Source: Rubrivivax sp. (GTDB lineage Bacteria; Pseudomonadota; Gammaproteobacteria; Burkholderiales; Burkholderiaceae_C). Taken from it: a stretch of DNA of 64,000 nt. The notes beneath the pieces are model-generated. The model was given only the letters and a program-made list of their open reading frames with translations. It searched no databases and was not told where the DNA came from. Shown piece by piece: positions 6,707 through 27,341 of the stretch (within the stretch, counting starts at the first letter, position 1; every line of letters begins with the position of its first letter). The stretch lies in NCBI GenBank assembly GCA_020248945.1, contig JADCGQ010000040.1, positions 62,001 to 126,000 on the forward strand, read 5' to 3'. Made by a program: the position numbers and the translations under genes.

Positions 6707-7834
6707 TCAAGACGGCAGGAAGTCCACCGGCCAGGTGACCACCAGCACCTCGACGTCCTTGGCGCCGAAGTCGAAGCTGCGGATGCGCGCGAGCAGGCGC
6801 TTCTCGAGCTCTTCGTTCTTCAGCTCGCTGGACACGAGGCGCAGGCCCGAGACCTCGCCCGAGGGTGCGATCTTCAGCTCCAGCACCACCTTGCCCTGCA
6901 AGGCAGGGTCGTCGCGGAGCGCGCGGTTGTAGATGGCGTAGATCGCGCCCTTGTTGCGCTCGAAGACGAGCTTCACGTCCTCGAGGCTGCGGCTGGCCTT
7001 GCCGCTGCTGCCCTTGGTGAGCGTGCCGCCCTTGCCGCCGGCCACGCCGTCGCCACTGCCGGTGCCCCCGCCGGCACGGCCACCGCCGCCGCCTGCGCCA
7101 CCCCCGCCGCCGCCGCCGGCCACGCCTTCCATCAGCGTGCTGCCGCGGCCGGCCAGGCCGCCGCCGCCGGTGTCGCGACTGAAGCCGGCGGTGTTGACGC
7201 CGCCGGTGCCGCCGGTGGCGTTGCTCGTCACCATCGCGCGCAGCGGCACGCCTTGTTCGGTGCCCGCGCCGACACCCGCGCCGGTGCCCGTGCCGACGCC
7301 GGGGCCGGGCTTGATGTCCTGGCGCAGCTGCGCCGCGGCCGGTGCGCTGTGCAGCTCGGCCAGCTGGTCCTTCATCGCCAGCAGGCCCACGCCGCTGGCC
7401 TTGCGGCGCGCGTTGTCCACCGCCACTTCACCCGGGCTCTTGTTGGGCTGCGGGTTGCGCGCCTCGGGCACCGGCGCTTCGTTCGGCTTCACGGCCTTGA
7501 TCGGCGCCGGCTTGTCGGGCGCGGCCTCGGGCGCCGCCTCGGGCTTGATGGCCTCGGCCAGCGGCGCGGGTGGTGGTGGCTTGGGCGCCTGCTGCTCGAG
7601 CAGCAGCCGCGCCATCGGCGCCGGCAGCGGCTGCATCTCGGCGCGCTTGGGCGGGCTCAGTGGCACGAACAGCATCAGCAGCACCAGCAGCACGGTGACG
7701 ATGCCGACGTTGCGCGCAATGCGCCTGAAGCGCCGCTCGTCGGCCGCGTTCAGCGCCCAGGGCAGCGCCGGCACGCGGAAGGACAGCGCAGCTTGCGCGT
7801 TCGTCGGGCCTGCATTCATGGCGAGGGCGACCAT
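6707..7834 (-). CDS. AgmX/PglI-type C-terminal domain protein, glycine-rich envelope-spanning
   Basis: 375 residues. A short cytoplasmic N-terminus is followed by one transmembrane helix (about 43-59), a Pro/Ala-rich linker, a Gly-rich stretch (about 190-270 with runs such as GGGGGGGAGGGGG) and a C-terminal domain (SLEDVKLVFERNKGAIYAIYNRALRDD in pieces, then GKVVLELKIAPSGEV) typical of the AgmX/PglI family and analogous to the TonB C-terminus. This plan fits a periplasm-spanning force transducer driven by ExbBD. The start ATG 7834 has AAGGAGG 9 bases upstream, inside the end of the ExbD gene, 4 bases from its stop. Last gene of the 16-gene operon. TonB itself is the alternative, but the domain looks closer to AgmX (GltJ of Myxococcus gliding). 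Confidence 0.8.
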   Translation of the reverse strand: MVALAMNAGPTNAQAALSFRVPALPWALNAADERRFRRIARNVGIVTVLLVLLMLFVPLSPPKRAEMQPLPAPMARLLLEQQAPKPPPPAPLAEAIKPEAAPEAAPDKPAPIKAVKPNEAPVPEARNPQPNKSPGEVAVDNARRKASGVGLLAMKDQLAELHSAPAAAQLRQDIKPGPGVGTGTGAGVGAGTEQGVPLRAMVTSNATGGTGGVNTAGFSRDTGGGGLAGRGSTLMEGVAGGGGGGGAGGGGGRAGGGTGSGDGVAGGKGGTLTKGSSGKASRSLEDVKLVFERNKGAIYAIYNRALRDDPALQGKVVLELKIAPSGEVSGLRLVSSELKNEELEKRLLARIRSFDFGAKDVEVLVVTWPVDFLPS

Positions 7835-7838
7835 CGGA

Positions 7839-8330
7839 TCAGGCCTCCTTCTTGCGCACGGCAAAGCTCACGTCGGCGAAGTTCGCGCGCGCGCAACTCA
7901 CCATCAGCTTGCGCAGCAGGCTGTAGGGCATTTGCCGGTCGGCCATGATGGTGACGGCCTGCTGCTCGGCCTGGTTGGCCGCCAGCACCGCGCTGCGCTG
8001 GCCCAGCAACTTGAGCTCGGCCTCCAGCGTGGGGATCGAGTCGCCTGCGGCGGCCGTGACCTCGGCCACGCTGGCCACGCGCCGGCCTTCGACGAGGATG
8101 TCGTCGCCCGACACCACCAGCAGCACCGTGGCCTCGGGTTCCTTCTCGGCGCTGGCGATCGGCAGGTCCACGGCCTTCGGGCTGATGAGCGTTTCCACAC
8201 CCGAGCTCGACAGCAGGAAGAAGATGAGGATGGTGAACACGTCGATCAGCGCGACGAGGTTCATGTCCATGTGCGCGCCGTTGCGCGCGCGGCGATGGGC
8301 GCGCTTTTCGGTGGCGGTCATCACGGCCAT
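7839..8330 (-). CDS. ExbD/TolR-family biopolymer transport protein (second copy)
   Basis: 163 residues: a short basic cytoplasmic N-terminus, one transmembrane helix containing MNLVALIDVFTILIFFLL with the conserved proton-carrying Asp (LIDVF), and a periplasmic ExbD domain. It partners ExbB/TolQ (8958-9626) in a proton-motive-force-driven motor. It differs clearly from the first ExbD (8455-8961), as in Tol/Agl motors with two non-identical TolR-like subunits. GGAG lies 8 bases before ATG 8330; ATG 8321 is a possible alternative. A ~90-base repeat separates it from the upstream exbD gene, whereas most genes here overlap or nearly touch. Confidence 0.9.
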   Translation of the reverse strand: MAVMTATEKRAHRRARNGAHMDMNLVALIDVFTILIFFLLSSSGVETLISPKAVDLPIASAEKEPEATVLLVVSGDDILVEGRRVASVAEVTAAAGDSIPTLEAELKLLGQRSAVLAANQAEQQAVTIMADRQMPYSLLRKLMVSCARANFADVSFAVRKKEA

Positions 8331-8364
8331 GTTCGGATCTCCGCAAAGGGCGACGCGGCCTGTC

Positions 8365-8453
8365 GGCCAAGCTCCCCGCCGAGGAACCGGCTCTGCCGGG
8401 CCTCTGGCGGGTGGCCCCCTCGGGGGGTAGCGAGCGAGAGCGAGCTTGGGGGC
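8365..8453. repeat. ~88-base GC-rich dispersed repeat, copy A
   Basis: Begins GGCCAAGCTCCCCGCC, contains GAACCGGCTCTGCCGGGCC and the hairpin CCCCCTCGGGGGG, and ends with GAGCTTGGGGGC. The outer ends are complementary (GCCAAGCTCCCC / GAGCTTGGGGGC). Copy B at 17125-17211 is in the same orientation. Each copy lies directly downstream (in the operon's sense) of a stop codon. The type is widespread in Burkholderiales intergenic regions. It could form a strong RNA structure within the operon mRNA. Confidence 0.85.
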
Positions 8454-8454
8454 T

Positions 8455-8961
8455 TCATTTCACGGGCGCGTCGCCGACGCTGATGTTCGGGAACAGCACC
8501 GCGCGCACCGTCTTCGCACCGCCTTCGGGCGAGGGGCGCACGGTGCTGTGCAGCTGGTCCATCACCTGCACGAGGTCGTCATAGGGCGTGTCGGGCTCGG
8601 CCAGCACGCTGGCGTCGGTGGTGTCGGGGAAGCGGCCCTTCACCTGCAGCAGCAGGCTGCCGAGCGCGGCCAGGTCGTGCTGCGGCTGGCCCTGCACGGT
8701 GGTCTTGGGGATGCGCTGGATGAGGCCGCCGATGCGGTCGCCGACCTCCAGCGCGTCACGCCGGATCACCACCTCGAGCTGCAGGTTCGGCCCCGTGATC
8801 TGCTCGACCGCGCTTTGCTGCGCCGGCAGGTTCAGGTCCATGATCGCCAGCCGCGAGAACACGGCCGTCGACAGCAGAAAGGGCACCAGCACGACGATCA
8901 GGTTGATGAACGCCGTGAGCTCCAGCTCGGCCGGCGCTTTTTTCAGCCGGCGGTTTTTCAT
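8455..8961 (-). CDS. ExbD/TolR-family biopolymer transport protein (first copy)
   Basis: 168 residues. The N-terminal helix region ELELTAFINLIVVLVPFLL carries Asn where most ExbD proteins have the proton-carrying Asp (LIDV in the second copy), so this subunit may be structural rather than proton-conducting. A periplasmic domain follows. The start ATG 8961 overlaps the ExbB stop by 4 bases (ATGA), so translation is coupled. Two TolR-like proteins beside one TolQ parallels the AglR/AglQ/AglS motor of Myxococcus. The missing Asp is visible directly; its meaning is inference. Confidence 0.9.
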   Translation of the reverse strand: MKNRRLKKAPAELELTAFINLIVVLVPFLLSTAVFSRLAIMDLNLPAQQSAVEQITGPNLQLEVVIRRDALEVGDRIGGLIQRIPKTTVQGQPQHDLAALGSLLLQVKGRFPDTTDASVLAEPDTPYDDLVQVMDQLHSTVRPSPEGGAKTVRAVLFPNISVGDAPVK

Positions 8962-9626
8962 GACGTGCGGCGCTCGGGTGCCGAGAGTTGCTCACCCGCC
9001 AGGCGTTGGACCAGGTTGAGGAAGGTGATCTTCGCGGCCTCCAGGCTGTCGACGATCTCGCCGGCGCGCGCCTGCAGGAAGGCGTGGATCAGCAGGAACG
9101 GAATCGCCACCATCAGCGCGAACGCGGTGTTGTTCATCGCGATCGAGATGCTGCCCGACAGCATGGCGGCCTTCTCGGCCGGGTTCACCGAGGCCACCGC
9201 CGTGAAGCCCTTGATCAGGCCGATGATGGTGCCCAGCAGGCCCACCAGGGTGACGGTGTTGGCGAAGGTGGCGATGTAGTGCGTGCGCTTCTCCAGCCGC
9301 GGCACGATCTCCATCATCCCTTCTTCCATGGCGTGGTCGATGTCCTCGCGGCGGCGCGCGCTCTTCATGCGCTCCAGGCCGTTGGAGACGATCTTGCCGA
9401 TGGCCGAATCGCTGGCCGAGGTCATGGCGTGCACCTCCTTGAACTGGCCCTTCTGCAGCAGCGGCAGCACCTGGTCCCACATCTTGCGGTTCTCGGCCCG
9501 CGTCTTGCGCAGGAAGATGAAGCGCTCGATGGCGATGGCCAGGCCCAGCGTCAGCATCGTCAGGCTGGGGTAGAGGAAGGGCCCGCAGTCGCGGAAGAAC
9601 TTCACGACGGTGTCGAAGGTGTTCAT
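8958..9626 (-). CDS. MotA/TolQ/ExbB proton channel family protein
   Basis: 222 residues with three hydrophobic segments (about 15-35, 112-136 and 155-182) and the family hallmark NTVTLVGLLGTIIGLIKGF followed by ISIAMNNTAFALMVAIP. It forms the inner-membrane channel that, with ExbD/TolR subunits, converts the proton gradient into motion of a periplasmic partner. Usual TolQ/ExbB length. It is followed by two exbD genes and an AgmX-like gene, and preceded by a small secreted protein gene with a 16-base gap. It is far too short for phage-defence ZorA. Confidence 0.93.
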   Translation of the reverse strand: MNTFDTVVKFFRDCGPFLYPSLTMLTLGLAIAIERFIFLRKTRAENRKMWDQVLPLLQKGQFKEVHAMTSASDSAIGKIVSNGLERMKSARRREDIDHAMEEGMMEIVPRLEKRTHYIATFANTVTLVGLLGTIIGLIKGFTAVASVNPAEKAAMLSGSISIAMNNTAFALMVAIPFLLIHAFLQARAGEIVDSLEAAKITFLNLVQRLAGEQLSAPERRTS

Positions 9627-9642
9627 GGTGGTGCGTCGGGGG

Positions 9643-9963
9643 TCAGCGGGTAGGAGTGGGGGCGGGTGTCGGTGCGGCGGCCGGCGCGGGTGCCGTCGCC
9701 TGGGCGTGGTAGGCGATCTGGCGGCGCAGCACTTCGCGGTCGAGCGGCGCGAGTGCTTCGTCGAGCACGCTGGCCACCGGCCGGCCCGAGAGCGTGCCGG
9801 GCAGCGGTTTTTTCCAGGGCACGATGTACAGCACCTTGGGCAGCTCGCGGTTGCCGATGATTTGCGTGCGGTCGATGTCGGCGCGGTCTTGCGCAGCGGC
9901 GGTGCCGGCGGCCAGCACCGCGGCGGCCAGGACGGCGGGCAGGGCCATCACAAGGGTTCTCAT
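9643..9963 (-). CDS. Small secreted protein of unknown function
   Basis: 106 residues: a signal peptide (cleavage after GTAAA near residue 23), then a short domain including IIGNRELPKVLYIVPWKKP and RPVASVLDEALAPLDREVLRRQI, and a Pro/Ala/Thr-rich tail. I do not recognise a named family. ATG 9963 overlaps the stop of the large TPR lipoprotein by 4 bases (ATGA), so it is a genuine coupled gene. It is placed between the TPR proteins and the ExbB motor, so a periplasmic accessory of the motor is plausible. Confidence 0.7.
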   Translation of the reverse strand: MRTLVMALPAVLAAAVLAAGTAAAQDRADIDRTQIIGNRELPKVLYIVPWKKPLPGTLSGRPVASVLDEALAPLDREVLRRQIAYHAQATAPAPAAAPTPAPTPTR

Positions 9964-12900: not shown

Positions 12901-13370
12901 GTGAGCGTGGCCAGCGCGGCTTCGAGCTGGCCGCCGCTTTCCTGCGCGCGCGCCAGTTGGTAGAGCACGCGGTCGACGCGGGTGTCGTTCGGGTAGGCCT
13001 TCAGGAAGGCTTCGTAGCGTTCGGTGGCGGCCTTGTAGTCGGGCACGTCGCCGGTGGGTGCCTCGGCGGCGGCGCGGTCGGCGCGGTCCATCTCCAGGTC
13101 GCCAAGGCGGCGCATCGCCTCGGGGCGCTGCGGTGCGTCGGGGGCGGCGGCGAGGAACTCGCGGTACGCGGCGATGCTGTCGGCTTCGGCCGCCGCGGCG
13201 AGCGCACCGGGCGCGTCGGCCACGATGTTCACCTGGCGGTCGCGCAGCGTGGCCAGCGTGGGCGCGTTGTCACCCGGCAGCGGCTTCGGCGCGCTGCTGC
13301 AGGCCGCCAGTAGCACGGCGGCGGCCAGTGGGGTCAGCGGCCCGCGAAGGCGCAGCAGCCGGCGGCTCAT
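9960..13370 (-). CDS. Very large TPR-repeat lipoprotein
   Basis: 1136 residues. The lipobox LLAACSS puts the lipidated Cys at residue 24. The whole length is helical tetratricopeptide-like repeats, for example AYREFLAAAPDAPQRPEAMRR, YEAFLKAYPNDTRVDRV in pieces, and LAYEEALALDAQAPLPHLNLA near the C-terminus. An Ala/Pro/Arg-rich break lies around residues 740-790, and the C-terminus is a Thr/Ala-rich tail. Such proteins scaffold envelope complexes; GltD/GltE/GltI of the Myxococcus gliding machine are comparable. ATG 13370 overlaps the upstream TPR gene's stop (ATGA). Outer- or inner-membrane sorting is not clear; residue 25 is Ser, not Asp, which suggests outer membrane by the E. coli rule. Confidence 0.85.
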   Translation of the reverse strand: MSRRLLRLRGPLTPLAAAVLLAACSSAPKPLPGDNAPTLATLRDRQVNIVADAPGALAAAAEADSIAAYREFLAAAPDAPQRPEAMRRLGDLEMDRADRAAAEAPTGDVPDYKAATERYEAFLKAYPNDTRVDRVLYQLARAQESGGQLEAALATLTRLVGSHPGTVHAEEAHFRRGEMLFATRQWAAAEEAYRTVLGVGQRSPFTERALYMQGWSLFKLGRTEDALEPFFAVLDLKLGKLPPRLRDEARLEELSPLTRADRELVEDSFRVLSISLASLQGEASIPPRVNPPRNPASRESWQFRVYLALAELYTKQERVKDAADTLAAFVRRQPLHAQAPLMQARVIEIYAAAGFEQQALAAKREHATRYDANSEFRRANPEGWARAQPLVQQHMAELARHHHALAQRARAAAATATPAAAANADVTEAVRWYDALLTQFPRHEGARANRFLLAELLFDERSFARSADEFERVAYAEQAPFDRPADAGYSALLALAELRKSAPAPEQVALQRRSVALAQRFASTFAADARGGAVLVNAADTLFALAGPDDGEAAVALARQALQRQPAPERELQRVAWTVIAHRAFEAGRLAEAEQAYAEVLDRAGSGDIRRAEWTERRAAAVYRQGEAARKAGDWRAAAGHFARVGGIAGLAAGSALRGGALFDQATALIEVKDWAAAASTLEAFRREHTSNPLQNEVPPRLALAYLELGQHSPAAREFETIARTATEPALARSARWQAAELHEKAALAAPAVAAVPVAATAARPTATPARRGAVRRAAPPPPAPPSLHAIATAAWERYLQAHPQPLEPAVEARWRLAELHKADATRRSTWLRAVQEADAAGGDARTPRTRRWGGLATLALAEPLQTAYQQVKLVEPLQRQLKAKKQRMDDLLKAYAAASEAGVAEVTTAATYRTAALYADFGQALIKSERPKKLNKLEREQYDVLLEEQAFPFEEKAIELHEANARRTASGVWDEWVRNSLQALAGFKPVRYAKPERTDAAYTVALAPLQAALAEARARGAEPPPGLLNALGVALRREGRFDDARLAYEEALALDAQAPLPHLNLAILHDLFLGDAARAQVLYQRYAELVPGEATQVNRWLAELKARKPAPGEKPAATPTPTAAATAAAPTETRR

Positions 13371-15373
13371 CGCGGGGCTCCGGTGATGCGTTCGCTGCGC
13401 TGGGCCAGCTGCGCGCGGTCGAGGATCTGCGCAATGGCCAGCCGTGCCTGCGCCGAGTACACGCGCAGCCGCTCCTGCTGCCCCTGCAGCTCGGCCACGG
13501 CCAGCGCGGCCAGCGTCTGGCCTGATTCGGCTTCGAGGGCCGCCACCTGCGGCTGCAGGGCGCGGATGCGATCGCCCAAGGCCGCCAGGCGCGTGGCGAA
13601 GCGCTCGTGGCGCGCCGGCTCCTCGGCCTGCGCGCGCAGCAGGGCGGCGTCACGGGCGCGGGCGTCGTCGAGCGCACGGGCGCTGTCGCGCAGGCCCTTC
13701 TTCACCGACCAGCCGCGCTCGCTGGCGCGCTGGGCCAGTTGCCACGTCAGCGCACCTTCGGCCCGCCGCAGGCGTTCGCCCAGTTGCGCCAGTTCGTCGG
13801 CGGCGAGGCCGGCGTCCGACGGCGCCGCGGTGGCGGACGCGAGCGCCGCACGCGAGCGCCGCAGGCGCTCGAGCAGCCCTTGCTCGGCTTCGTCGGCCAG
13901 CGCCACGCCGTCGGCCTGGCGCTCGGCCTCGGCGAGTTCCGCGGCCAGTGCGGCGCGGCGGGTTTCGAGCGCCGGCAGGTTCACGGCGCCGGCCGATTCG
14001 CGCACCCTCGGCAGCCGCACGGCAAAGGCGGCACGGCGCTCTTCGAGCATGGCGCCGTAGGTGCCGAGCTTGTCTTGCCAGCCGCCCAGCTGCACGGCCA
14101 GGAAGCGCAGGTCGCGCAGGTGCTTGTAGGTCTCCTGGAAGGGGTGGTCGGCCAGCAGCGGGCGCAGGTGGCTGCCGTGCGGCATCGACGGCAGGCGGTC
14201 GATGCGTGCGAAGGCGGCCAGGCCGGCGTCGGCGGCGCTCACTTGCCCGCTCAGGTCGTCCGGGTTGCTCTCGACCAGGCCGCGCACCAGCGCGCCGCCG
14301 CGGATGGCCGCGATCGACTCGTCCAGCGCCTGGTGCTCGCGCTCGAAGTTGGCCACCGCCTGGCGGTAGCGGTCGAGCGCCTGCGAGTAGGCGCCGATCT
14401 CGGCCATCGCATACGGCACGGCGATCTGCGCCTCCAGCACCGCGGCGTCGGCCAGGTCGCGGCTGGCGAGTTCGGTCCAGGGCACGAGTGCGAGCTTGGG
14501 GTCGTTCAGCTCGGTCGCGGCCCAGCCGTGGCCGAGCAGCGCCTTGTTCGACTGCGCGCCTTCGAGCCGCACACGCTGCAGCGCGGCACGCGCCTCGCGC
14601 GGCTTGCGCGACTGCAGCGCGGCAAAGCCCAGCGCCACGTTGGCGCGGTCGCGGATGGCGCGCTGTTCTTCGTCGGTCGAGGGCGTGGCGCCGACCTGGT
14701 CGAGCAGCGCCGTGCCGCGCACGGTGGCCTCGTTCTCGGGCTGGCCCGCGCCCTGGCGCAGCAGCGCCACGGCCAGGTTGAAGCGCGCCAGCATCAGCGT
14801 GGCGGGGGCCGGCTTGCGCGGCGCCTTCGGGTCGGCCAGGGCCTCCAGCACGGTGGCCGCGCCGGCGGCATCGCCCTGGGCCAGGCGCAGTTGCGCGCGC
14901 AGCAGCTGGTGTTCGTCTTCGAGCGCGCCGACCAGCGGCGAACCGATGCGCGCCAGCGAAGACTCGGCCTCCACGAGGTGCCCACGCTGCTGCTGCAGCC
15001 GCGCCAGGAAGAACCAGGCGCGGTCGCGCACGCGCGGTGGCGCCTGGCTTTCGATGAGGCGGGCGAAGACCTCGCGCGCCTCCTCGTGCAGGCCGTAGCT
15101 CAGCAGCAGGCCGCCGCGCAGCACCTCGGCCTCGTCGTCGTGCGGGGCCAGGCGCGCGAAGTGCTGCGACACCATCAGCGCCGACAGCGCCGAGAAGCTC
15201 TTGCCCTGGAAGACGTGGAACAGCACGTCGCCGTGGTGCGGCGCCTTCACGGCGACGGCCGGCAGCGCGGCATCGGCAGCATCGCCGCGCGCCGGCGTCT
15301 GGGCGTGCGCCGACACCATCGCCAGCATGGCGAAGGCGCAGGCCGCAAGGCGCACAGACGGCATCGAGGGCAT
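13367..15373 (-). CDS. Periplasmic TPR/coiled-coil protein
   Basis: 668 residues. A signal peptide ends at about VSAHA; TPR-like helical repeats occupy roughly 50-350 (EEAREVFARLIESQAPP, RAWFFLARLQQQRGHLVEAE). A long Ala/Glu/Arg-rich coiled coil (about 450-640) follows. The start ATG 15373 shares its A with the upstream stop (TGATG), and a second ATG lies 9 bases inside. The stop overlaps the next TPR lipoprotein gene. Presumably a scaffold linking the barrels with the inner-membrane motor; function is inferred from context only. Confidence 0.82.
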   Translation of the reverse strand: MPSMPSVRLAACAFAMLAMVSAHAQTPARGDAADAALPAVAVKAPHHGDVLFHVFQGKSFSALSALMVSQHFARLAPHDDEAEVLRGGLLLSYGLHEEAREVFARLIESQAPPRVRDRAWFFLARLQQQRGHLVEAESSLARIGSPLVGALEDEHQLLRAQLRLAQGDAAGAATVLEALADPKAPRKPAPATLMLARFNLAVALLRQGAGQPENEATVRGTALLDQVGATPSTDEEQRAIRDRANVALGFAALQSRKPREARAALQRVRLEGAQSNKALLGHGWAATELNDPKLALVPWTELASRDLADAAVLEAQIAVPYAMAEIGAYSQALDRYRQAVANFEREHQALDESIAAIRGGALVRGLVESNPDDLSGQVSAADAGLAAFARIDRLPSMPHGSHLRPLLADHPFQETYKHLRDLRFLAVQLGGWQDKLGTYGAMLEERRAAFAVRLPRVRESAGAVNLPALETRRAALAAELAEAERQADGVALADEAEQGLLERLRRSRAALASATAAPSDAGLAADELAQLGERLRRAEGALTWQLAQRASERGWSVKKGLRDSARALDDARARDAALLRAQAEEPARHERFATRLAALGDRIRALQPQVAALEAESGQTLAALAVAELQGQQERLRVYSAQARLAIAQILDRAQLAQRSERITGAPR

Positions 15374-15987
15374 CACCAGACCTTGACGTCGAACTCGGGT
15401 TGCAGCTTGCCTTGCGCGTCGCGGATGCGCAGCTCGATGTAGCGCGGCTCGCTGGTCTTCTCGAAGCTGAGCGTGGTGCCGCGCTTGTAGTCGCGCTGGT
15501 GATCGCCCTGCTTCGGCCCGCGGCCGGTGAAGAAGGCGTCGATGGCGTGCGTGCCGCTCTTCAGGTTGCCGAGCCACAGCCGCTGCACGCCGCCGCGCTT
15601 GAGCGCCGCCACCTCGGCCGGCGTGTACAGGTGCTGGCCGACGACCTGGTTGCCCATCTTGACCTGCACCGACTCGAGCTCGAAGAAGACGCCGACGTCC
15701 ATGCTCACGAACACCGCCACCTGCGTGCCGGCGGGGAACAGCAGCTCTTCCTCGAGCACCAGCAGGTCGCGGTTCAGGCGCACGAGCTCGGACTTCAGCT
15801 GCTGCACGCGGGCATCCAGCGGCGCCGGGGGTGGCGGTGGCGTGGCGGGTGCGGATGCGGCGGCAGCGGGCGCCGAAGCGGCTGGCGCCGAGGCAGCGGC
15901 CGCAGCCGGGTCGGCCGCTGCCGTCGTCTGGGCCCATGCCGGCCCGGCCAGCAGGGCCAGCAGCAGGAGGATGAAGTGGCGGCTCAT
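15373..15987 (-). CDS. Periplasmic protein of unknown function in the envelope operon
   Basis: 204 residues: a signal peptide (ends PAWAQ), an Ala/Pro/Ser low-complexity linker to about residue 55, a short coiled coil (VQQLKSELVRLNRDLLVLEEELLF in pieces), then a beta-rich domain with VAVFVSMDVGVFFELESVQVKM and GNLKSGTHAIDAFFTGRG. The last part resembles an immunoglobulin/PEGA-like fold, but I do not recognise a family. Directly followed by the TPR gene with TGATG overlap; 27 bases after DUF3570. Likely part of the same complex. Confidence 0.72.
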   Translation of the reverse strand: MSRHFILLLLALLAGPAWAQTTAAADPAAAAASAPAASAPAAAASAPATPPPPPAPLDARVQQLKSELVRLNRDLLVLEEELLFPAGTQVAVFVSMDVGVFFELESVQVKMGNQVVGQHLYTPAEVAALKRGGVQRLWLGNLKSGTHAIDAFFTGRGPKQGDHQRDYKRGTTLSFEKTSEPRYIELRIRDAQGKLQPEFDVKVW

Positions 15988-16014
15988 GGTGTCGCTGTTC
16001 CCCAGGTGCGGGTG

Positions 16015-17124: not shown

Positions 17125-17211
17125 GGCCAAGTCCCCGGCGCGGAACCGGCTCCGCCGGGCCGCTGCCGGAGCCCCCTCGGGGGGTGGCGAGCAGGGCGAG
17201 CCTGGGGGCTC
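17125..17211. repeat. ~88-base GC-rich dispersed repeat, copy B
   Basis: Same element and orientation as copy A (8365-8453): GGCCAAGTCCCCGGC ... GAACCGGCTCCGCCGGGCC ... CCCCCTCGGGGGG ... GAGCCTGGGGGCTC. It occupies the complete gap between the DUF4266 stop (17214) and the DUF3570 start (17124). By opening the reading frame upstream of DUF3570 it makes the start ambiguous. Confidence 0.85.
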
Positions 17212-17213
17212 GT

Positions 17214-17447
17214 TCAATTGCATCCACAGCCTCCGCCCTGGATGCCCGTGGCCCCGCGCGCGCCTTCGCGCACGGTGTGGATGTGCTCGCGGTGCTTGTC
17301 GATCAGCGCGTGGCGCGACACCAGCATGATCGGGTCCGACAGCCGCTCGCGTTCGTACGGCTTCACCCAGGGCTCGGGCAGCGTGACGCAGCCGCCGAGC
17401 ATGGCGGCACTGGCAAGGATGAGCAGCGTGGCGCGCATGGGCTTCAT
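17214..17447 (-). CDS. DUF4266 small lipoprotein
   Basis: 77 residues. Lipobox LGGC with Cys20; then PEPWVKPYERERLSDPIM and the invariant family ending GGGCGCN. The conserved C-terminus REGARGATGIQGGGCGCN contains a GAT tripeptide resembling the ApbE flavinylation site of FMN-binding domains (S/T-G-A-T), but that is a hypothesis. The start ATG 17447 overlaps the thioredoxin stop (ATGA); a second ATG at 17438 is possible. DUF4266 is generally linked with DUF3570, ApbE and TlpA, which supports an extracytoplasmic redox or metal role. Confidence 0.88.
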   Translation of the reverse strand: MKPMRATLLILASAAMLGGCVTLPEPWVKPYERERLSDPIMLVSRHALIDKHREHIHTVREGARGATGIQGGGCGCN

Positions 17448-17944
17448 TCCTTGACGAGTTCGCGGATCTGGCGCTCGTACTCCAGCTCCATGCCGTCGCG
17501 GTAGCCGCGGTGCAGGTAGCGGATTCGGCCGTCGCGGTCGACCAGCACGGTGCTGGGCATGGCGCCGAGGTCGTAGGTGCGGGTGACGGTCTTTTCGGCG
17601 TCCAGCAGCACCGGGAAGCGCAGCCCCCAGCGGGCGGCCGTTGCGGCGCCGTGGCGCGGGTCGTCGTCGATGTTCACGCCCAGCACCATGAAGCCGCCGG
17701 CCTTGTACTTGTCGTGCAGCTTGTTCAGGTGCGGCATCTCGACGCGACACGGCCCGCACCAGCTGGCCCAGAAGTTGATGAGCACCACCTGCCCGCGTTG
17801 TTCGGCCAGCCGCAGGTTGCCGCCTTCGGCGCGCTTGAGCGTGAAGTCGGGGGCGGCCTGCTGGGGCTTCACGGCGGCGTGGGCGGTGCCCATGGCCAGG
17901 GCCAGCATCAGGGGCAGGGCGGTTGCGAGGGTTCGGCGCAGCAT
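17444..17944 (-). CDS. TlpA/ResA-like periplasmic thioredoxin
   Basis: 166 residues with a signal peptide (cleaved near TAHA-A) and a thioredoxin fold: NFWASWCGPCRVEMPHL gives the redox pair Cys63/Cys66, and the cis-proline loop is GAMPSTVLVDRDG. Such proteins reduce apocytochrome c CXXCH cysteines or other periplasmic disulfides. Here the neighbours include a triheme lipoprotein and the Cys-rich DUF4266, both plausible clients. The stop overlaps the DUF4266 start. Confidence 0.92.
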   Translation of the reverse strand: MLRRTLATALPLMLALAMGTAHAAVKPQQAAPDFTLKRAEGGNLRLAEQRGQVVLINFWASWCGPCRVEMPHLNKLHDKYKAGGFMVLGVNIDDDPRHGAATAARWGLRFPVLLDAEKTVTRTYDLGAMPSTVLVDRDGRIRYLHRGYRDGMELEYERQIRELVKE

Positions 17945-17967
17945 GGCGTGGGCTCGGAGGTGAACGC

Positions 17968-18639
17968 TTAGAAATAGACGGTCAGGCCGGTCGTGAACTC
18001 GAGGTTGTTCGTGTTCTGCCGCTTGCCCAGGATGTCGAGCGGGAACATGTGATTGCGGCCATCGAACTGCACGGCGAAGCGGTCGTTGACCAGCACGCGC
18101 AGGCCCATGCCGACGTGCATCGTCTGCTTGCGCTGGCCGGCGAAGTCGGTGCTGCCGATGCCGGCCAGCAGGTAGGACTGGAAGGCCCTGGCCGTGCGGC
18201 GGCCGAAGAAGGCCTCGCCGGTGAGCACGTTCCAGCCGGCCGACACGGCGTAGTAGCGCAGCGTCTGTGTCGGCGTGCCGAACAGGCCGCCGGGCAGCAC
18301 CTGGCGGAAGGCCTCGTCGGTGACCTTGGTCTGGGCCAGCGTGGCGTCGACGAAGAAGTCCTCGGTGATGTGGTACCCGAGCCGCACGCCGCCCACGCCG
18401 CTGGCGCCGAAGTTCTGCGTGCCGTAGGTGCCGCCGAACAGGCCGATGGCGAAGTCTCGCGAGGGGTAGCTCGGCGCGCGCACCTCGCGGCGCTCGACCT
18501 GCGGCACCACCACCGGCTCGGGTGCGCGCGGCGCCGTCTGCGCCAGCACCGGGGCGGCGGTGGCGGCCAGGAGGGCAGTCACCAGACAGCTTGAACGAGC
18601 CGGGGAACGAGCCTGGGAACGAGCCGGGAAAGGTCGCAT
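17968..18639 (-). CDS. Outer-membrane beta-barrel domain protein
   Basis: 223 residues: a signal peptide, a short linker with PSYPSRDFAIGLFGG, then eight or so beta strands (GYHITEDFFVDATLAQTKV, FQSYLLAGIGSTDF, LEFTTGLTVYF) ending in Phe. Resembles the small barrel family found with myxobacterial Glt/Nfs-type clusters. The N-terminal codons contain a 12-base unit repeated three times (18591-18626), giving ARSQ/ARSP/ARSS. It lies 8 bases downstream of the SH3-barrel gene. Confidence 0.8.
   Translation of the reverse strand: MRPFPARSQARSPARSSCLVTALLAATAAPVLAQTAPRAPEPVVVPQVERREVRAPSYPSRDFAIGLFGGTYGTQNFGASGVGGVRLGYHITEDFFVDATLAQTKVTDEAFRQVLPGGLFGTPTQTLRYYAVSAGWNVLTGEAFFGRRTARAFQSYLLAGIGSTDFAGQRKQTMHVGMGLRVLVNDRFAVQFDGRNHMFPLDILGKRQNTNNLEFTTGLTVYF
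18591..18626. repeat. Tandem 12-base repeat, three units
   Basis: Units of approximately GGGAACGAGCCT, within the signal-peptide region of the barrel gene. A multiple of three, so unit gain or loss would lengthen or shorten the N-terminus in frame. Confidence 0.7.
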
Positions 18640-18647
18640 GACAGATC

Positions 18648-19436
18648 TCAGAAGAAGAACGCCAGCCCGAGCGACAAGGCCCGGTACTCGATGCTGCGGT
18701 TGTCGGCCACGAACGCGGTGTACAGCGTGGTGTCGGCGCGCGCGACGAAGCGTTCCGTGATGTACCAGCGCAGGCCGGCCGTGGCGTGGGCCAATTTGAC
18801 GTTCACCCCGGCGGCGTCGACGAGGCTGCGGTTGGGGATGTTTCTGAACGTACCGAGGCCGACGCTGACGAAGGGCGACCAGCGCTGGTCGTGCCAGGGT
18901 TCGGCCACCAGGCCGAGGTGCCAGAAGTCGGTGCCGGAGAAGGTGCCCTGCACCTGGCCGGCGGCCAGCTCGATGGAGATCGGGCTCGCCAGGCGCACGC
19001 CCAGCCACAGCTTGAGCATCGGCTCGCCACCGAAGCGGCCGCCGCCGCCGCCGAACTCGACGCGGCGGCGCAGGTAGTCGTCGAGCAGGATGTCGCGGAA
19101 GCTCTTGCCGATGCCGGCCTCGGTGAGCGTGCGCTCGAGCTGCGCGCGCGGCACCCAGCCCACCTGCCCGCCATCGGCGCGCACGCGGAACCAGTCGGTG
19201 CGGCGCAGTTCGATCACCACGCTGGCGCCGCGCTCGACGACGAAGAACACCGGGTAGCCGCGGCCCGGGCCGCTGTGAAGTTCGAGAAACGCGTCGGCCA
19301 CGGCGAGCCGCTCGGCCTGCGCGGCGGCCGGCGCCTGTGCCGACGCCGCCAGCGGCAGGCCGAGCGCCAGCGCCGCGCCAAGCGCCAGCGCCCCGCGCCG
19401 CAGGAAGGCGAGCGCGGCGCTCACTCGACGTTGCAC
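18648..19436 (-). CDS. SH3-domain plus outer-membrane barrel protein
   Basis: 262 residues: a signal peptide, a bacterial SH3 domain (about 42-105; LELHSGPGRGYPVFFVVERGASV, WFRVRADGGQVGWVPRAQL in pieces), then a beta barrel with HATAGLRWYITERF and the final strand LSLGLAFFF ending in Phe. The SH3 part may bind peptidoglycan or a protein partner in the periplasm. The GTG start at 19436 overlaps the upstream gene by 16 bases; GTG 19424 is a possible later start. Second of three barrels in the operon. Confidence 0.8.
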   Translation of the reverse strand: MQRRVSAALAFLRRGALALGAALALGLPLAASAQAPAAAQAERLAVADAFLELHSGPGRGYPVFFVVERGASVVIELRRTDWFRVRADGGQVGWVPRAQLERTLTEAGIGKSFRDILLDDYLRRRVEFGGGGGRFGGEPMLKLWLGVRLASPISIELAAGQVQGTFSGTDFWHLGLVAEPWHDQRWSPFVSVGLGTFRNIPNRSLVDAAGVNVKLAHATAGLRWYITERFVARADTTLYTAFVADNRSIEYRALSLGLAFFF

Positions 19437-20083
19437 GAACCGGTGGCCGGATCGGGCGGCGTGAACATCGTGGCCGCAGCCGGGCTGAACTCGTCCTGGT
19501 TGGCCGGCATCGGCCGGTTGATCCAGTAGCGGAGCAGCTTCGCAGCCGGGTCGTTGGGGTTGTCGAAGATGAGCCCGCCGCCATGCAGCACGCCGCGCAC
19601 CAGCGGCTTGTTCAGCATGCGGCTGGCGTCGGCGCTGCCGACCACCGACTCGCCGAGCGAGGAGTAGAAGTTCTTGTACATGTCGCTGGCGCGGATGGCC
19701 TCGGGAGCAAGAGACAGTTCGACGGCCGGCGCGGTGCCGAACAGGCGCAGCGCACCGCCAGTGCCGCTGCCGTTGTCGTGGCAGCCGGCGGCGGCGCAGG
19801 TGTTGAGCGTGGTGACGCCGCCGATGCGCACCGGCAGCGGCGTGTTCAGCAGTGGGTTGATGCAGCGCTGGAAGTAGGCGAACGACAGCTTCTGCCCGGT
19901 GGCACCCGGCGGGTTGGCGATGGTGGCCGGGTTGTCGAGCGGCCCGCCACCGCCGCAGGCGGCAAGAGCCAGAAGCGCAGCCAGCAGCGCAGCCAGCGCC
20001 AGGGCCGGCAGGCCGCGGCCGCCGGCCCGCAAGGGCACGGCGGCTCGTGTGATGGCAGGAACGGTGTGCGGTGTCGTCGTCAT
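19421..20083 (-). CDS. Lipoprotein with CX4CH haem-like motif
   Basis: 220 residues; lipobox ALAACGG with Cys43 after a long N-terminus. LNTCAAAGCHDNG gives a CX4CH motif, an atypical c-type haem site; no ordinary CXXCH is present. Pairs with the triheme protein upstream, whose stop overlaps this ATG (TGATG). SRMLNKPLVRGVLHGGG is reminiscent of domains seen in Planctomycete-type cytochromes. If haem is attached it would be a monohaem electron carrier; otherwise the cysteines may form a disulfide. Confidence 0.72.
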   Translation of the reverse strand: MTTTPHTVPAITRAAVPLRAGGRGLPALALAALLAALLALAACGGGGPLDNPATIANPPGATGQKLSFAYFQRCINPLLNTPLPVRIGGVTTLNTCAAAGCHDNGSGTGGALRLFGTAPAVELSLAPEAIRASDMYKNFYSSLGESVVGSADASRMLNKPLVRGVLHGGGLIFDNPNDPAAKLLRYWINRPMPANQDEFSPAAATMFTPPDPATGSCNVE

Positions 20084-23000
20084 CAGCGCTGGGGCCGCAT
20101 TGTCCTTGCGGAAGTGGGGGTGGCGGAAGAGCAGCCGCGGCGGATCCACGCGGCGATCGCCTCGTAGCCCGTGCTGCCCACCGGCAGCATCGCCGTGGTC
20201 TGGCCGAGCTCGCCGCTGGGGTGCGGCACGGTGCTGGGCCGCGCCAGCAGCGCGTTGCTCTCGGGCACGCAGGTGTTGCTGATGAGGCTGAGCGTGACGT
20301 TGTAGTCGCCCTCTTCGCTGCCGGTGAGCACGAAGCGGTTGCGCGGGTTGCCGAGGCCGGCCTGGTGGCAGCTGGCGCACTGCGCCTGCAGGATGGGCTG
20401 CATGGTCGACAGGAAGCTCGCTTCGCTCAGGCCCTCGATGCGGCGCACGCCACCGGAGGGGTCGAAGGGGTCGTTGTAGTACTGGCCGCCCAGGTCCATC
20501 CACTCGGCGAGCAGGCGTTTCTCGGCCTTGTTGAGCAGTTGCGAGTGATCGGGGGCGCCGGCCGGCGGATTGGGGTGCGAGCTGCGCGATCCGGCGCCTG
20601 CCAGCAGCGTCTGGCCCCACAGGATCTCGGTGAGCCGGCTCTTGCGCGCCAGACCGGCGCTGTTGGCCGAGCCCGAGCTGGTGTCCACCAGCGCCGGGCC
20701 GCGCACGACCTCGGGCACGCCCTGCACGAGCCGGATCACCGGCCGGCCGGTGGCGGCGTCGATCACCGGGTCGCCGAGCAGCAGCTCTTCGTACGAGGCC
20801 ATGCGGCCGGTGCCGGCCAGCGTGGCGCGCAGGTCGAGCTTGGCGCTGTCGGCATGGCAGGCCACGCAGGTGTGCTCGCCGGCCGTGCCGCGCACGCGGT
20901 TCCACAGCGGCTGGATGTGCTCGGGGTAGTTGATGACGCCGTTGCGGGGCACCGGCGTGGCCAGGTCGTCGGCCGGGTTGCTGTTGCCGGTGTAGAGCAG
21001 CGAGACGCTGCGCCGCGGCGTCACGCCGGCCTGCGTGGTGTCGGCCCAGAGGTCGGTGAACAGGGGGCTCGGTGCCAGCGCCAGCGCCGTTGGGTCGAGC
21101 CGCGAGCGCAACGAGGCCATCGTCTCGCCCGGCGTGTGCGCAGCGGCCAGCGCGCGGCTCACGCCGGCGGGCAGGCCGGCGGTCACGGCGCCGTTGTTGA
21201 GGCCGATGCCGCGGCGCGGGCTGTGGCAGCCGTTGCAGGTGCGGCGTTCGCCGGGTCGCACCTGGATCCAGTTGGTGTGCGTCTGGATGGCGCGCCCCTC
21301 GGAGTCGATCACGCTCAGGGCCAGCGGCACGTCGGCCGGCACCTCGAGCCTGAAGCTGCCGTCGGGTTCGATCGGCGCATAACCCAGGATCTGGTTCTGC
21401 TCGAAGTCGGTCTCGCCAATGTTCTGGCGCACGCCGCCCATGCCGCTGGGCGGCGGCACGCCGCGCGTGGCCCGCACGAACCAGGCCGGGCTGCACTTGT
21501 AGGCGGGGTCGGCCGGGTCGCGCATCTGGCCCAGGTTGGCCACGCGGGCGCGTGTGTCGGCGGCCTCCTGCGGGGCGGTCTGCGGGATGCTGGTGGTGCA
21601 GCCGGCGTCGCGGTCGCTGGCCACCAGCATCTGCGCGGCCATGCGGTTGAGGCCGTCGGTGTCGTAGACGCTGCGCACCTCGATCAGCGACATGTTGCGC
21701 GCGGCCAGGGCGGCGTCCACCGTGGTCGGCTCGACGACGTTGGGCTCGGTGCGCGCCGTCAGCGCGATGGGGTCGGTGTACATGAAGCCGGCCGGCGGCG
21801 CGGCGACGATCAACCAGGTCTGGTTGGCCGGGTTGAACATGTAGATGGCGTAGGCGGCGGGGGCGTTGTCCTGCACGCTGTCGGTGGCGCGCACGGCCAT
21901 CGTGCGGTTGGTGTCGCCGAGCGCCGCGCGCTCGGCGTCGGTGAGCGTGGTGCACGAGACGACGACGCCGTTGCGCGTGACCTCGCAGGGCCGCCAGGCC
22001 ACGAGCACGCGGTCGCTGCCGTCCCACAGCGGGTAGGGCGTGGTGGCGCGGCCGAAGAGGCTCAGGCCGCGGCCGTCGGACAGCACGCGCTCCGTGGCGC
22101 TGGCCTGGCCGCCGCTGGCCAGCACGCCGCTGCGCGCCGGGGTGTTGTCCTCGCTGTAGTTGGCGGCATCGATCATCTGCAGCGAGCCGCCTTCCTTGGT
22201 GCCCGACAGCGGCATCAGCGTGCTCACGAGCTGGCCCGGGAAGCGGCCGCGCGGATCCATGTCGCGCGGGTGCAGGTAGCTGTTGCCCCGGCTCTGGGCG
22301 CCGTACAGCACGAACATGTCGGTGCCGTCGGGCTTGCTGCGGAAGATGGCGAAGCGGTTGCGGTCGGCCACGTGTTCCCAGCGCGAGAACATGATGTCGC
22401 CGTCGGGGCGGATCACCGGGTTGCGCTCGTGGCTCATGTTGAAGCTGATCTGCTGCACGCCCGAGCCGTCGGCGGCCATCGTGTGCAGGTTCATCACGCG
22501 CTCGCGCTCGTACTCGTCGGCCGCGAAGTAGGCCCGGCCCAGCGCCTGGTTCAGGCTGCTCTTGGCCTGGCGGTTGCTGGAGAACACGATGCCGCGGTTG
22601 CCCGGCAGGTACACGGGGTCGACGTCGTCGGCGCCAGTGCTGGCGGTCAGGCGCCTGAAGCTGCCGTTCTGCAGACCGTTGGTGCCCAGCGTGTACTCCC
22701 AGATGTTCCAGCGCCCGGTGCAGGCGGCCAAGCCTTCGATGGTGGCGGTGTTGCTGCTGGGGCAGCGCATCGAGAAGACGACCTTCTTGCCGTCATAGCT
22801 GACCTCGGGGTCGGAGGCGTCGCCCAGGCCCTGCGTGAAGCGCGCCGTGAGGTTGTGCTCGGTGGCGCTGGGGCTGCTCTTCTCGCGCAGCATCAGGTCG
22901 CCGCCGGCGGCGAAGTTGGCGCCGTCGGTGGGGTTCAGGCCCACCGAGGTGGCGCGCTTGACGTAGGCGATGGGCACGTCGCCGTTGACGGTGACGGTGT

Positions 23001-23100
23001 CCTCGCTGCCGCTGTTGCCGGAGCAGGCGGCGAGCAAGGCCGCCAGCAAGGCCGTGCTGGCCAGGACGAACGGCGTGGAAATGGGGGTCGATCGGTTCAT
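20083..23100 (-). CDS. Triheme PD40/hydrazine-synthase-alpha-like lipoprotein
   Basis: 1005 residues. The lipobox ALLAACSG has Cys26. The N-terminal half contains PD40/TolB-like beta-propeller blades (DPEVSYDGKKVVFSMRC, DPVYLPGNRGIVFSSNRQ, NPVIRPDGDIMFSRW). The C-terminal half has three CXXCH haem sites: CNGCH (residue 622), CVACH (745) and CASCH (908). The architecture matches HzsA-related proteins, which are common outside anammox bacteria; no HzsB/C is here, so hydrazine synthesis is not implied. ATG 23100 has GAGGAG upstream. Likely an extracytoplasmic electron-transfer or oxidase component for the operon. Confidence 0.85.
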   Translation of the reverse strand: MNRSTPISTPFVLASTALLAALLAACSGNSGSEDTVTVNGDVPIAYVKRATSVGLNPTDGANFAAGGDLMLREKSSPSATEHNLTARFTQGLGDASDPEVSYDGKKVVFSMRCPSSNTATIEGLAACTGRWNIWEYTLGTNGLQNGSFRRLTASTGADDVDPVYLPGNRGIVFSSNRQAKSSLNQALGRAYFAADEYERERVMNLHTMAADGSGVQQISFNMSHERNPVIRPDGDIMFSRWEHVADRNRFAIFRSKPDGTDMFVLYGAQSRGNSYLHPRDMDPRGRFPGQLVSTLMPLSGTKEGGSLQMIDAANYSEDNTPARSGVLASGGQASATERVLSDGRGLSLFGRATTPYPLWDGSDRVLVAWRPCEVTRNGVVVSCTTLTDAERAALGDTNRTMAVRATDSVQDNAPAAYAIYMFNPANQTWLIVAAPPAGFMYTDPIALTARTEPNVVEPTTVDAALAARNMSLIEVRSVYDTDGLNRMAAQMLVASDRDAGCTTSIPQTAPQEAADTRARVANLGQMRDPADPAYKCSPAWFVRATRGVPPPSGMGGVRQNIGETDFEQNQILGYAPIEPDGSFRLEVPADVPLALSVIDSEGRAIQTHTNWIQVRPGERRTCNGCHSPRRGIGLNNGAVTAGLPAGVSRALAAAHTPGETMASLRSRLDPTALALAPSPLFTDLWADTTQAGVTPRRSVSLLYTGNSNPADDLATPVPRNGVINYPEHIQPLWNRVRGTAGEHTCVACHADSAKLDLRATLAGTGRMASYEELLLGDPVIDAATGRPVIRLVQGVPEVVRGPALVDTSSGSANSAGLARKSRLTEILWGQTLLAGAGSRSSHPNPPAGAPDHSQLLNKAEKRLLAEWMDLGGQYYNDPFDPSGGVRRIEGLSEASFLSTMQPILQAQCASCHQAGLGNPRNRFVLTGSEEGDYNVTLSLISNTCVPESNALLARPSTVPHPSGELGQTTAMLPVGSTGYEAIAAWIRRGCSSATPTSARTMRPQR

Positions 23101-23117
23101 TCGAATCTCCTCGGCTC

Positions 23118-24107
23118 TCAATTCGACAGGTTCTGCAGCCCGGGTGACACGTGCAGCGCGCCCTCGGCATCGACGATCACGGCGTCCACCCCCGGCACGC
23201 GGGCCAGCAGCGCCAGGCCGGCGGCCGGGCCGCGCACGAACAGCGCCTTCGACAGCGCCTCGCAGCCGAGGCCGTCGGGCCCGAGCACGGTGACGCTGCG
23301 CGCCGCCGCGGCGCTGGCGCCGGTGGCGGGATCGATCAGGTGGTGCACGCGCTCGCCGGCATCGATGAAGCAGCGCTCGTAGTCGCCGCTGGTGGAGACG
23401 GCGGTGTCTTCGAGCGGCAGCACCGCCACGTGGCCGCTGCCACGCGGGTCGCGGATGGCCAGGCCCCAGGGGCGGCCGCGGCGGTCGCCGATGACGCGGC
23501 TGTCGCCGCCGGCGGCAACAAACGCGTGGCGCACGCCGCGGCGCTGCAGCAGTGCCGCGGCGTTGTCCACGGCGTGCCCCTTGGCGAAGCCGCCGAGGTC
23601 GATGCACATGCCCTCGCGGGCGTAGCGCAAGGTCTTGGCGCGCCGGTCGAGCTCGAGGCCGCGCCAGCCGACCAGGGCCTTCGCGGCGGCCAGCGTGGCG
23701 GCGTCGGGGCGGCGGCCCTCGCGGTAGTTGTACAGGCGGCCGACGGCGGCGTAGCTGATGTCGAAGGCGCCGTCGGTCAGCGCCGAGAACGCCAGTGCAC
23801 GCTCGATCAGCGCAAAGCCCTCTTCCGACAGCGGCACGGCGCGCCGCGCGGCGTCGCGGTTGATGCGGCTCAGCTCGGAGGCCGGCTGGTGCGGGCTCCA
23901 GGCGCGGTCGATGCGGTGCATCTCGTCGAACACCGCCTGCACGGCGGCTTCGCCGGCGCGGGCGTCGTCGGCCCAGAGCTCGACGTGGATGGCGGTGCCC
24001 ATGGCGACGTCGTCGCGCTGGATCCACCCGGCCGGTGCGGCCGCCCGCAGCGTGCGGGTGGCAAAGTCGAATCGGCGCTGCATCGGGTGGGCGAAGGCTT
24101 GCAACAT
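23118..24107 (-). CDS. apbE: FAD:protein FMN transferase, ApbE family
   Basis: 329 residues. Transfers FMN from FAD to Thr/Ser of target proteins. Motifs: VAMGTAIHVELW (N-term), FDISYAAVGRLYNY, CIDLGGFAKGHAVD (FAD site), VAAGGDSRVIG, STSGDYERCF and HHLIDPATG. Unlike most ApbE proteins, no hydrophobic signal peptide or lipobox is visible in the first 40 residues, so its location needs checking (ATG 24107 or 24083). First gene of the operon; 17 bases before the triheme gene. The target is presumably encoded in the operon. Confidence 0.9.
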   Translation of the reverse strand: MLQAFAHPMQRRFDFATRTLRAAAPAGWIQRDDVAMGTAIHVELWADDARAGEAAVQAVFDEMHRIDRAWSPHQPASELSRINRDAARRAVPLSEEGFALIERALAFSALTDGAFDISYAAVGRLYNYREGRRPDAATLAAAKALVGWRGLELDRRAKTLRYAREGMCIDLGGFAKGHAVDNAAALLQRRGVRHAFVAAGGDSRVIGDRRGRPWGLAIRDPRGSGHVAVLPLEDTAVSTSGDYERCFIDAGERVHHLIDPATGASAAAARSVTVLGPDGLGCEALSKALFVRGPAAGLALLARVPGVDAVIVDAEGALHVSPGLQNLSN

Positions 24108-25112: not shown

Positions 25113-25132
25113 GGCGGCGGAACAGCTCACGT

Positions 25133-27270: not shown

Positions 27271-27341
27271 TTCGCCGCCGCCACCGCAATAGCAGCAGAG
27301 AGACACCTGCCGACACCTCCCGACCCCTCATCACCCCGACG

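Follow-up and report, generated by a model that had tools for sequence, protein, structure and literature searches.

Using a 64,000-nucleotide window of the Rubrivivax sp. assembly GCA_020248945.1 (contig JADCGQ010000040.1, positions 62,001-126,000), which is the whole stretch of DNA analyzed here and the one to which all coordinates refer, we identified an operon of sixteen genes, A to P in order of transcription, all of which are encoded on the minus strand from position 24107 to position 6707, as the original prediction made from this sequence had claimed. The operon combines a motor half (the motor proteins M-N-O, the transducer P, the large proteins J/K, and I and L) with a redox half (the DUF3570 barrel H, together with G, F, B, C, D, and E, and the ApbE protein A as maturase), and, judged by sequence comparison, the motor half is inherited with the redox half. 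The conserved order of the sixteen genes is far beyond chance, and the two halves almost certainly form one genetic unit. That they also form one physical system is probable, and that force acts on electron transfer itself is a tentative proposal.

H co-occurs with I, the marker gene of the motor core. In a sample of 369 genomes drawn evenly from the class, I was present in 82, the subfamily of DUF3570 proteins to which H belongs (at least 245 bits) in 56, and any DUF3570-like match in 94. The 245-bit cut-off was placed in a gap in the scores, with the next whole match at 165 bits; H is split in pieces in two genomes (G784 and G604), where the best piece was used, and is present in two copies in another (G566), where the copy beside I was used. 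Because the profile was made from H proteins adjoining I, these proteins delimit the subfamily, and what the survey tests is whether such an H occurs without I. No such case was found, as all 56 genomes with H also have I (Fisher p 1.7e-46, a value that is a yardstick only, as the genomes are related), in line with the single operon originally proposed. H was found in 53 of the 54 genomes where I scores at least 160 bits and in 3 of the 28 with a weaker I, the 160-bit line having been set after the list was seen. In a phylum-wide sample, I was present in 14 of 398 genomes.

I and H lie on one contig in 45 genomes of the class sample, with H directly upstream and on the same strand in 31 and 5 kb upstream in one; in the remainder, H is divergent at 4 kb (one genome) or at 11-14 kb (ten), or is located downstream at 23-30 kb (two). 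A set of genes labeled T2 was considered as an alternative redox module and rejected, because H was merely beyond the 10 kb fetched, being 11-14 kb off on the opposite strand in the ten genomes just mentioned. The distant, opposite-strand H in these genomes indicates that much of T2 is the same set of parts in a divergent layout with three further genes, which encode a monoheme protein (with a PSD2 match below cut-off), a LamG protein with two hemes, and a protein with a twin-arginine-like N-terminus and no Pfam match. In L263, L252, L265, L266, and other gammaproteobacterial loci, these three genes are found upstream of I, beside B or the core.

The combined gene order also recurs in relatives. 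In a set of 148 genomes from the search of relatives (the genus set), 34 have some match to I, and 27, the source genome included, have one above 100 bits; two of the 27 (G078 and G027) are not represented among the loci around I. Close copies of I have 8 kb of DNA to either side in 15 of 22 loci, and the order A-P is kept in every one of these (13 exactly, and 2 with G unscored), which bears out the original prediction of a combined order; six of the seven shorter loci fit the order, and the seventh (L101) is without a scored C. The named-genome set, which comprises the best 80 of 528 relatives of I, is therefore weighted to near kin and shares genomes with the genus set. In these 80 loci, the order A-P is kept in 43 of the 46 with 8.8 kb on both sides (41 exactly, and 2 with G unscored), and 31 of the 34 shorter loci fit it. 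Of the three deviating loci, L179 lacks G and H within reach and has B on the other strand, and L182 has B and D-L. In the third, L157, on a Burkholderiales chromosome, the order ends after J, and motor genes were not seen in the following 9 kb. By title, the named relatives are mostly Burkholderiales (Rubrivivax, Ideonella, Methylibium, Piscinibacter, Aquabacterium, Caldimonas, and others), and all sixteen genes are also present in an Acidithiobacillales genome (L112). Culturable environmental species with this order include Caldimonas caldifontis (L143), Rivibacter subsaxonicus (L137), and Rubrivivax rivuli (L116). The genes I-P are in order in 45 of the 57 loci with 8.8 kb downstream; four of the other 12 miss one scored gene, and in the remaining eight, at most I to L are seen in the available DNA. 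Both this conservation of order in the named loci (43 of 46) and the co-occurrence of I and H lead us to reject chance clustering.

A tree of the core, built from concatenated I, M, N, O, and P by a quick method with midpoint rooting, and with module labels taken from the 10 kb flank only, contains 68 of 83 candidates, after removal of 15 for which the fetched DNA contained at most one of the five genes. All 45 rows labeled as redox (33 with H, and 12 with A or B) are located in a single clade of 49 rows, with a support of 82 in the Shimodaira-Hasegawa-like approximate likelihood ratio test, and the other four rows of this clade have no redox gene, or just an F-like gene, within reach. Outside this clade are two groups, of 9 and 10 rows, without the redox module, one row having an F-like gene. 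A single branch of the core is therefore linked to the redox half and the other branches are not, and since these other branches do without it, the redox half looks like a cargo of the motor. As a side observation, a protein with a von Willebrand A domain is encoded upstream of one core without redox genes (L243:12776-14797). The canonical cluster of DUF3570, DUF4266, and ApbE occurs alone, also in the source genome, which implies that only the H subfamily described here is tied to the motor. This second, classical DUF4266/DUF3570/ApbE/thioredoxin cluster of the source genome (L085; G000:C4, about 116500-121450) adjoins a gene for DsbD, the only one found in the assembly (91.9% complete); it lies beside that other DUF4266 gene, and none is present beside the A-P operon.

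The genes of the operon are closely packed. Of its 15 junctions, six are overlaps of 1-4 bases and six are gaps of 4-27 bases; the tight spacing first described thus holds for these, with C-D as an exception, as this overlap is 16 bases. The only wide junctions are G-H (89 bases) and N-O (124 bases), and each contains a copy of the same GC-rich repeat, whose pattern has four exact matches genome-wide, the N-O copy among them. Inspection of one relative per junction demonstrated a TGATG overlap in place of the repeat, at G-H in L066 and at N-O in L067, so the repeats look like later insertions, and interruption of the operon by the two repeats was rejected given the overlapping genes of these repeat-free relatives. 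A consensus scan of the operon identified no sigma-70-like promoter, and seven terminator-like sites where 6.9 were expected; those on the minus strand, three in number, are inside genes A, I, and J. Neither kind of signal was thus found by the scan at any junction, and the internal promoter or terminator named as a refuting condition for the original proposal did not turn up. The start codons of P and H are most likely at 7834 and 17124, respectively, and both have been corrected.

Upstream of A are genes for a LytTR response regulator and for a histidine kinase, which are not counted in the operon and may regulate it. Among 102 loci from the overlapping genus and named sets, 70 have more than 1 kb of DNA upstream of A and 52 have more than 1 kb downstream of P; matches to the response regulator came from 27 loci and matches to the kinase from 10, whereas none was obtained for the solute-binding protein downstream of P. 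This flank control indicates that conservation ends at P and that, past A, a regulator is common to only part of the loci.

Matches in Pfam and NCBIfam mostly agree with the gene names first proposed (ApbE, HZS_alpha, SH3, barrels, thioredoxin, DUF4266, DUF3570, MotA/ExbB, two ExbD, and AgmX/PglI), with the difference that tetratricopeptide repeats (TPR) are recognized in K only. The coordinates of all features are collected in the table.

Features of the sixteen-gene operon, in order of transcription, and, in the last row, of the DNA upstream of A
Feature	Position	Strand	Basis
A: ApbE flavin mononucleotide (FMN) transferase	23118..24107	minus	PF02424 258.8 bits; no recognizable signal peptide
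B: lipoprotein, HZS_alpha middle domain, three CXXCH heme motifs	20083..23100	minus	PF18582 71.8 bits
C: lipoprotein, one CX4CH motif	19421..20083	minus	C96, C101, H102 each 71/71
D: secreted SH3 domain and probable small outer-membrane barrel	18648..19436	minus	PF08239 above cut-off; PF05736 below
E: small outer-membrane barrel	17968..18639	minus	TIGR04565 OMP_myx_plus 131 bits, cut-off 60
F: secreted TlpA/ResA-like thioredoxin, WCGPC	17444..17944	minus	PF00578, PF08534
G: DUF4266 lipoprotein, C-terminal GGGCGCN	17214..17447	minus	PF14086 75.2 bits
GC-rich repeat, G-H junction	17132..17184		repeat family D20; absent from G-H of L066
H: DUF3570, modeled 16-strand outer-membrane barrel	16015..17124	minus	PF12094 103.1 bits; model confidence (pLDDT, predicted local distance difference test) 92.7
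H: predicted flavin-acceptor serines S79 and S87 (SNAS, TYAS)	16864..16890	minus	alignment of H proteins
I: secreted, helix and transthyretin/Ig-like beta-sandwich, core marker gene	15373..15987	minus	structure model
J: large secreted periplasmic protein	13367..15373	minus	conserved place in gene order
K: very large TPR lipoprotein, 1136 residues	9960..13370	minus	TPR families
L: small secreted protein	9643..9963	minus	conserved place in order; no match in Pfam or NCBIfam
M: MotA/TolQ/ExbB motor protein	8958..9626	minus	PF01618 93.9 bits
N: first ExbD/TolR-like axle protein	8455..8961	minus	PF02472 43.3 bits; Asn20 (codon 8902-8904) replaces transmembrane Asp
GC-rich repeat, N-O junction	8373..8425		repeat family D20; absent from N-O of L067
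O: second ExbD/TolR-like axle protein	7839..8330	minus	PF02472 47.6 bits; Asp30 (codon 8241-8243)
P: TonB-like transducer, AgmX/PglI C-terminal domain	6707..7834	minus	NF033768 61.7 bits, cut-off 40
LytTR response regulator and histidine kinase	24276..27306	minus	PF04397, PF06580; upstream of A, outside operon count

In the redox half, the central protein is H, for which the structure model shows 16 long strands, with PelB, AlgE, and FadL-type barrels as the nearest folds by Foldseek. ApbE is known to flavinylate a DUF3570 protein at two [ST]GA[ST] sites (Meheust et al. 2021, PMC8238504). In the ungapped rows of our alignment of H proteins, Ser or Thr is present at acceptor site 1 in 102 of 103 and Ser at acceptor site 2 in 103 of 105. 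The Gly position of the published motif is occupied at site 1 by Asn in 73 rows, Ser in 17, and Gly in 11, and at site 2 by Thr in 89 rows; in ten classical DUF3570 proteins, this position is always Gly at site 1 and is Gly (five), Ser (four), or Thr (one) at site 2. Both acceptors are located, in the model, in the loop joining strands 3 and 4, and the acceptor side, to which 191 of 335 positions belong, carries 52 of the 61 that are highly conserved in the barrel (with the strand ends read by hand from the secondary structure of the model). Barrels such as H usually have their N-terminus in the periplasm, and with this orientation the acceptor side of H would face outward.

The signal peptides of A and its relatives were called from hydrophobicity and by visual judgement only. 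In the Burkholderiales clusters, A is without a recognizable signal peptide, whereas most relatives in other lineages have one: the N-termini passing the hydrophobicity line number 7 of 55 in full clusters versus 23 of 25 elsewhere. By eye, only that of L112 among the 7 is a signal peptide, and that of L230 among the 23 is not one; the two that do not pass outside full clusters (L100 and L101) are both from the genus of the source genome. On this evidence, either H would be flavinylated prior to export, or A would have a different target.

The heme and CXC residues of the other redox proteins are also conserved. In B, heme motifs 1 and 2 are kept in 91-93 of the 92 or 93 rows covering them, and motif 3 in 71 of 71; a weak TolB-propeller match is also present (TIGR02800, E 1.8e-5), and hydrazine synthase alpha (PDB 5c2v) aligns over residues 554-628. 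Both Cys of the CXC tail of G are kept in 112 of 112 proteins. F scores 117.8 bits against NF002854, under the cut-off of 170 of that model, and PF13899, the thioredoxin family of the clusters of Meheust et al., stays below its cut-off in the proteins of the operon. B, C, G, and K are lipoproteins by their signal sequences, as judged by eye.

In the motor half, the claim that the operon carries the same kit as the Myxococcus Glt/Agl gliding machine stands for the conserved core complex and fails for the full machine, since P has no FHA match (no Pfam match at E 0.01), J has no family match, and N lacks the axle Asp. The marker protein I has 204 residues and no Pfam family; it has no credible match among solved structures by sequence and none by Foldseek at E 0.001, and a comparison of folds returned only common beta-sandwiches at middling Z. 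No match to J was found in Pfam or NCBIfam, and the TPR assignment first given to it is not confirmed. K has weak matches to GltE (E 2e-4) and GltC (E 1e-3) and a marginal one to PorW/SprE (E 0.0099). In addition to its AgmX/PglI domain, P matches the C-terminal parts of GltG (NF033760, E 9.7e-11) and GltJ (E 1.4e-7), each under the model's cut-off, and the TonB C-terminal family at 24.9 bits, just short of the cut-off of 27.1.

The two axle proteins differ at the proton site, the position at which ExbD/TolR/MotB proteins have their proton-binding Asp. N has Asn in 108 of 110 sequences and O has Asp in 107 of 107, and this holds in the groups with and without redox genes (three rows, labeled T3, are outside the groups tabulated). 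Of the 12 ExbD-family copies found in the source genome, 11 have the Asp, and N alone is without it. Such strict pairing of an Asp protein with an Asn protein fits an obligate N-O heterodimer with one proton site, and the axle is most likely of this kind, with a single proton-carrying Asp.

Taking the two halves together, we lean toward the interpretation that the operon encodes one envelope-spanning system in which the motor positions, opens, or moves an outer redox complex. Proton flow through M-N-O would move P, and P, via a periplasmic scaffold of J/K, would act on an outer-membrane complex made up of the barrels D, E, and H and the lipoproteins B, C, G, and K. A would attach two FMN to the serines of H, and electrons could then travel in either direction along a path that leads from thiols in the periplasm, with F first and the CXC tail of G after it, over the H flavins to the hemes that B and C carry at the outer membrane, where a substrate on the cell surface or beyond it would accept or donate them. 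Electron flow would not be driven by the motor, which would instead position, open, or move the redox complex, as Agl, a modular motor, moves cargo such as Nfs in Myxococcus (PMC3858216). A bolder version, which we offer tentatively and consider possible rather than likely, is a machine of a new class, in which a force generator powered by protons and built on a permanently asymmetric axle (one Asp and one Asn) gates or moves extracellular electron transfer via an outer-membrane complex with two outward flavins and surface hemes.

Several observations weigh against a single force-linked redox system. Core systems without nearby redox genes make up 19 of the 68 tree rows, in two groups, with two more inside the redox clade, and their existence implies that the motor can work without the redox half. 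Distant copies of I in L084 (37% identity) and L098 (42% identity), both at contig ends, have no A-H gene in the 9.8 kb and 3.6 kb upstream, respectively. Among 99 whole B proteins, three CXXCH motifs are present in 46, two in 46, and one or none in 7, so that about half have two motifs and not three. Flavinylation of H is itself uncertain here, because its motifs depart from [ST]GA[ST] and the ApbE of the Burkholderiales is without a recognizable signal peptide. Nor is there a DsbD beside the operon as an electron source, the sole one found adjoining the other DUF3570 cluster. Membership of one operon could also reflect co-regulation rather than one complex.

These points leave room for other explanations, of which one has the motor half as a device that exports or assembles the barrels together with the surface redox lipoproteins B and C, comparable to GldLM and type IX secretion, with the later electron transfer being free of force. 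The lipoprotein signals of B, C, G, and K, the marginal resemblance of K to PorW/SprE, and the fact that the same motor module has other neighbors in other lineages, including LamG-plus-heme proteins adjoining B, all agree with such a device; motor systems without these proteins nearby exist, however, and we consider this explanation fairly unlikely.

It is unlikely that two independent machines share the operon for common regulation only. Free-standing relatives exist for each half, as such an arrangement would allow, but an H of this subfamily without I was never found in 369 genomes, and in 14 genomes H is not directly upstream of I and yet is on the same contig within about 30 kb.

We consider it improbable that the operon encodes a TonB-like importer, in which a redox compound, either a metal or an organic one, would be taken up through H, D, or E with the force of the motor and be reduced or released by flavin and heme. 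To our knowledge, TonB systems do without very large periplasmic proteins, of which two are present here, and neither a plug domain nor a TonB-dependent receptor was matched in Pfam in any of the 16 proteins; in favor of import are the TonB C-terminal match of P, just below its cut-off, the large barrel modeled for H, and the iron transporters that some flavinylation clusters include (PMC8238504). That the motor handles a surface polymer, moving exopolysaccharide as Glt and Nfs do while the redox half oxidizes or cross-links it, is improbable as well, since none of the 16 proteins has a Pfam match to a polysaccharide enzyme or LamG, even though Glt and Nfs bind slime and Exo polymers (PMC3858216) and a LamG-heme protein adjoins the cluster in gammaproteobacterial relatives.

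The envelope-spanning system that we favor shares features with several known systems, and a search by title and abstract (with subscription papers, preprints, and supplements outside it) identified no publication linking an Agl/Glt-type motor to ApbE or DUF3570; the names DUF4266 or DUF3570 appear in a single paper among those searched. GldLM and type IX secretion also use a proton motor to drive an outer-membrane machine (PMC9389320), a resemblance of principle, as the PorW/SprE match in K is marginal. The alpha subunit of hydrazine synthase has a middle domain similar to that of B, including its CXXCH; in contrast, B reaches 69.8 bits against an NCBIfam cut-off of 800 and has an extra C-terminal heme motif.

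Closer to the redox half are the clusters of ApbE, DUF3570, a thioredoxin-like protein, and DUF4266 described as "DsbD systems" of uncertain function (PMC8238504), with which the operon shares this set of proteins, including the two acceptor sites in DUF3570 and the CXC tail in DUF4266. It differs from them in its SNAS and TYAS motifs, in which the acceptor Ser and the Ala are kept and the Gly of [ST]GA[ST] is lost, in having no adjoining DsbD (which is also present in only part of the published DUF3570 clusters), and in its HzsA-like triheme protein and motor genes; the word "TPR" does not appear in the main text of that paper.

On the motor side, the Agl-Glt and Agl-Nfs machines of Myxococcus xanthus likewise have a proton motor, a TonB-like transducer, TPR proteins, and outer-membrane barrels (PMC3858216 and PMC9389320). 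FHA, which is a feature of GltG, was not matched in P, and no redox half is described for these machines in the available text of the two papers. In addition, both AglQ and AglS are predicted to have a mid-membrane Asp, and whether they form a heterodimer is given as unknown (PMC9389320), whereas N has Asn and O has Asp. This pair bears on the open question of 5:2 motors in the same paper, namely, whether two unlike axle proteins heterodimerize, and raises the question of whether one proton site suffices. The Group A proteins GltA, B, F, H, I, J, and K were not recognized by the models run, with the GltJ C-terminal match of P, below cut-off, as the only trace.

A close counterpart is the Agl/Glt "core complex" (Group B), which Luciano et al. 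(2011, PMC3169522) described in one region in beta- and gammaproteobacteria, in non-gliding bacteria and with its function unknown. It consists of a MotA/TolQ-like protein, two ExbD-like proteins, a TonB-like relative of GltG, and TPR proteins, clustered as here, and has a further gene without Myxococcales homologues, to which I or L could correspond. Comparison with our operon showed that M, N, and O are all over their Pfam cut-offs, and that P has the AgmX/PglI domain of a GltG-type transducer over cut-off, its match to GltG itself being below; of GltC, GltD, and GltE, only the weak GltE and GltC matches in K were identified, and J has none. The contiguity described for this complex outside the Deltaproteobacteria is also present, as seen in the order of I-P. 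The operon differs in adding the redox half and in the missing axle Asp of N, and the word ApbE is absent from the text of that paper. The core complex of 2011 and the DUF3570 electron transfer of 2021 (PMC8238504) are thus inherited together in one large clade, which provides a strong functional clue for each, and their joint inheritance makes both questions testable in ordinary, culturable Burkholderiales.

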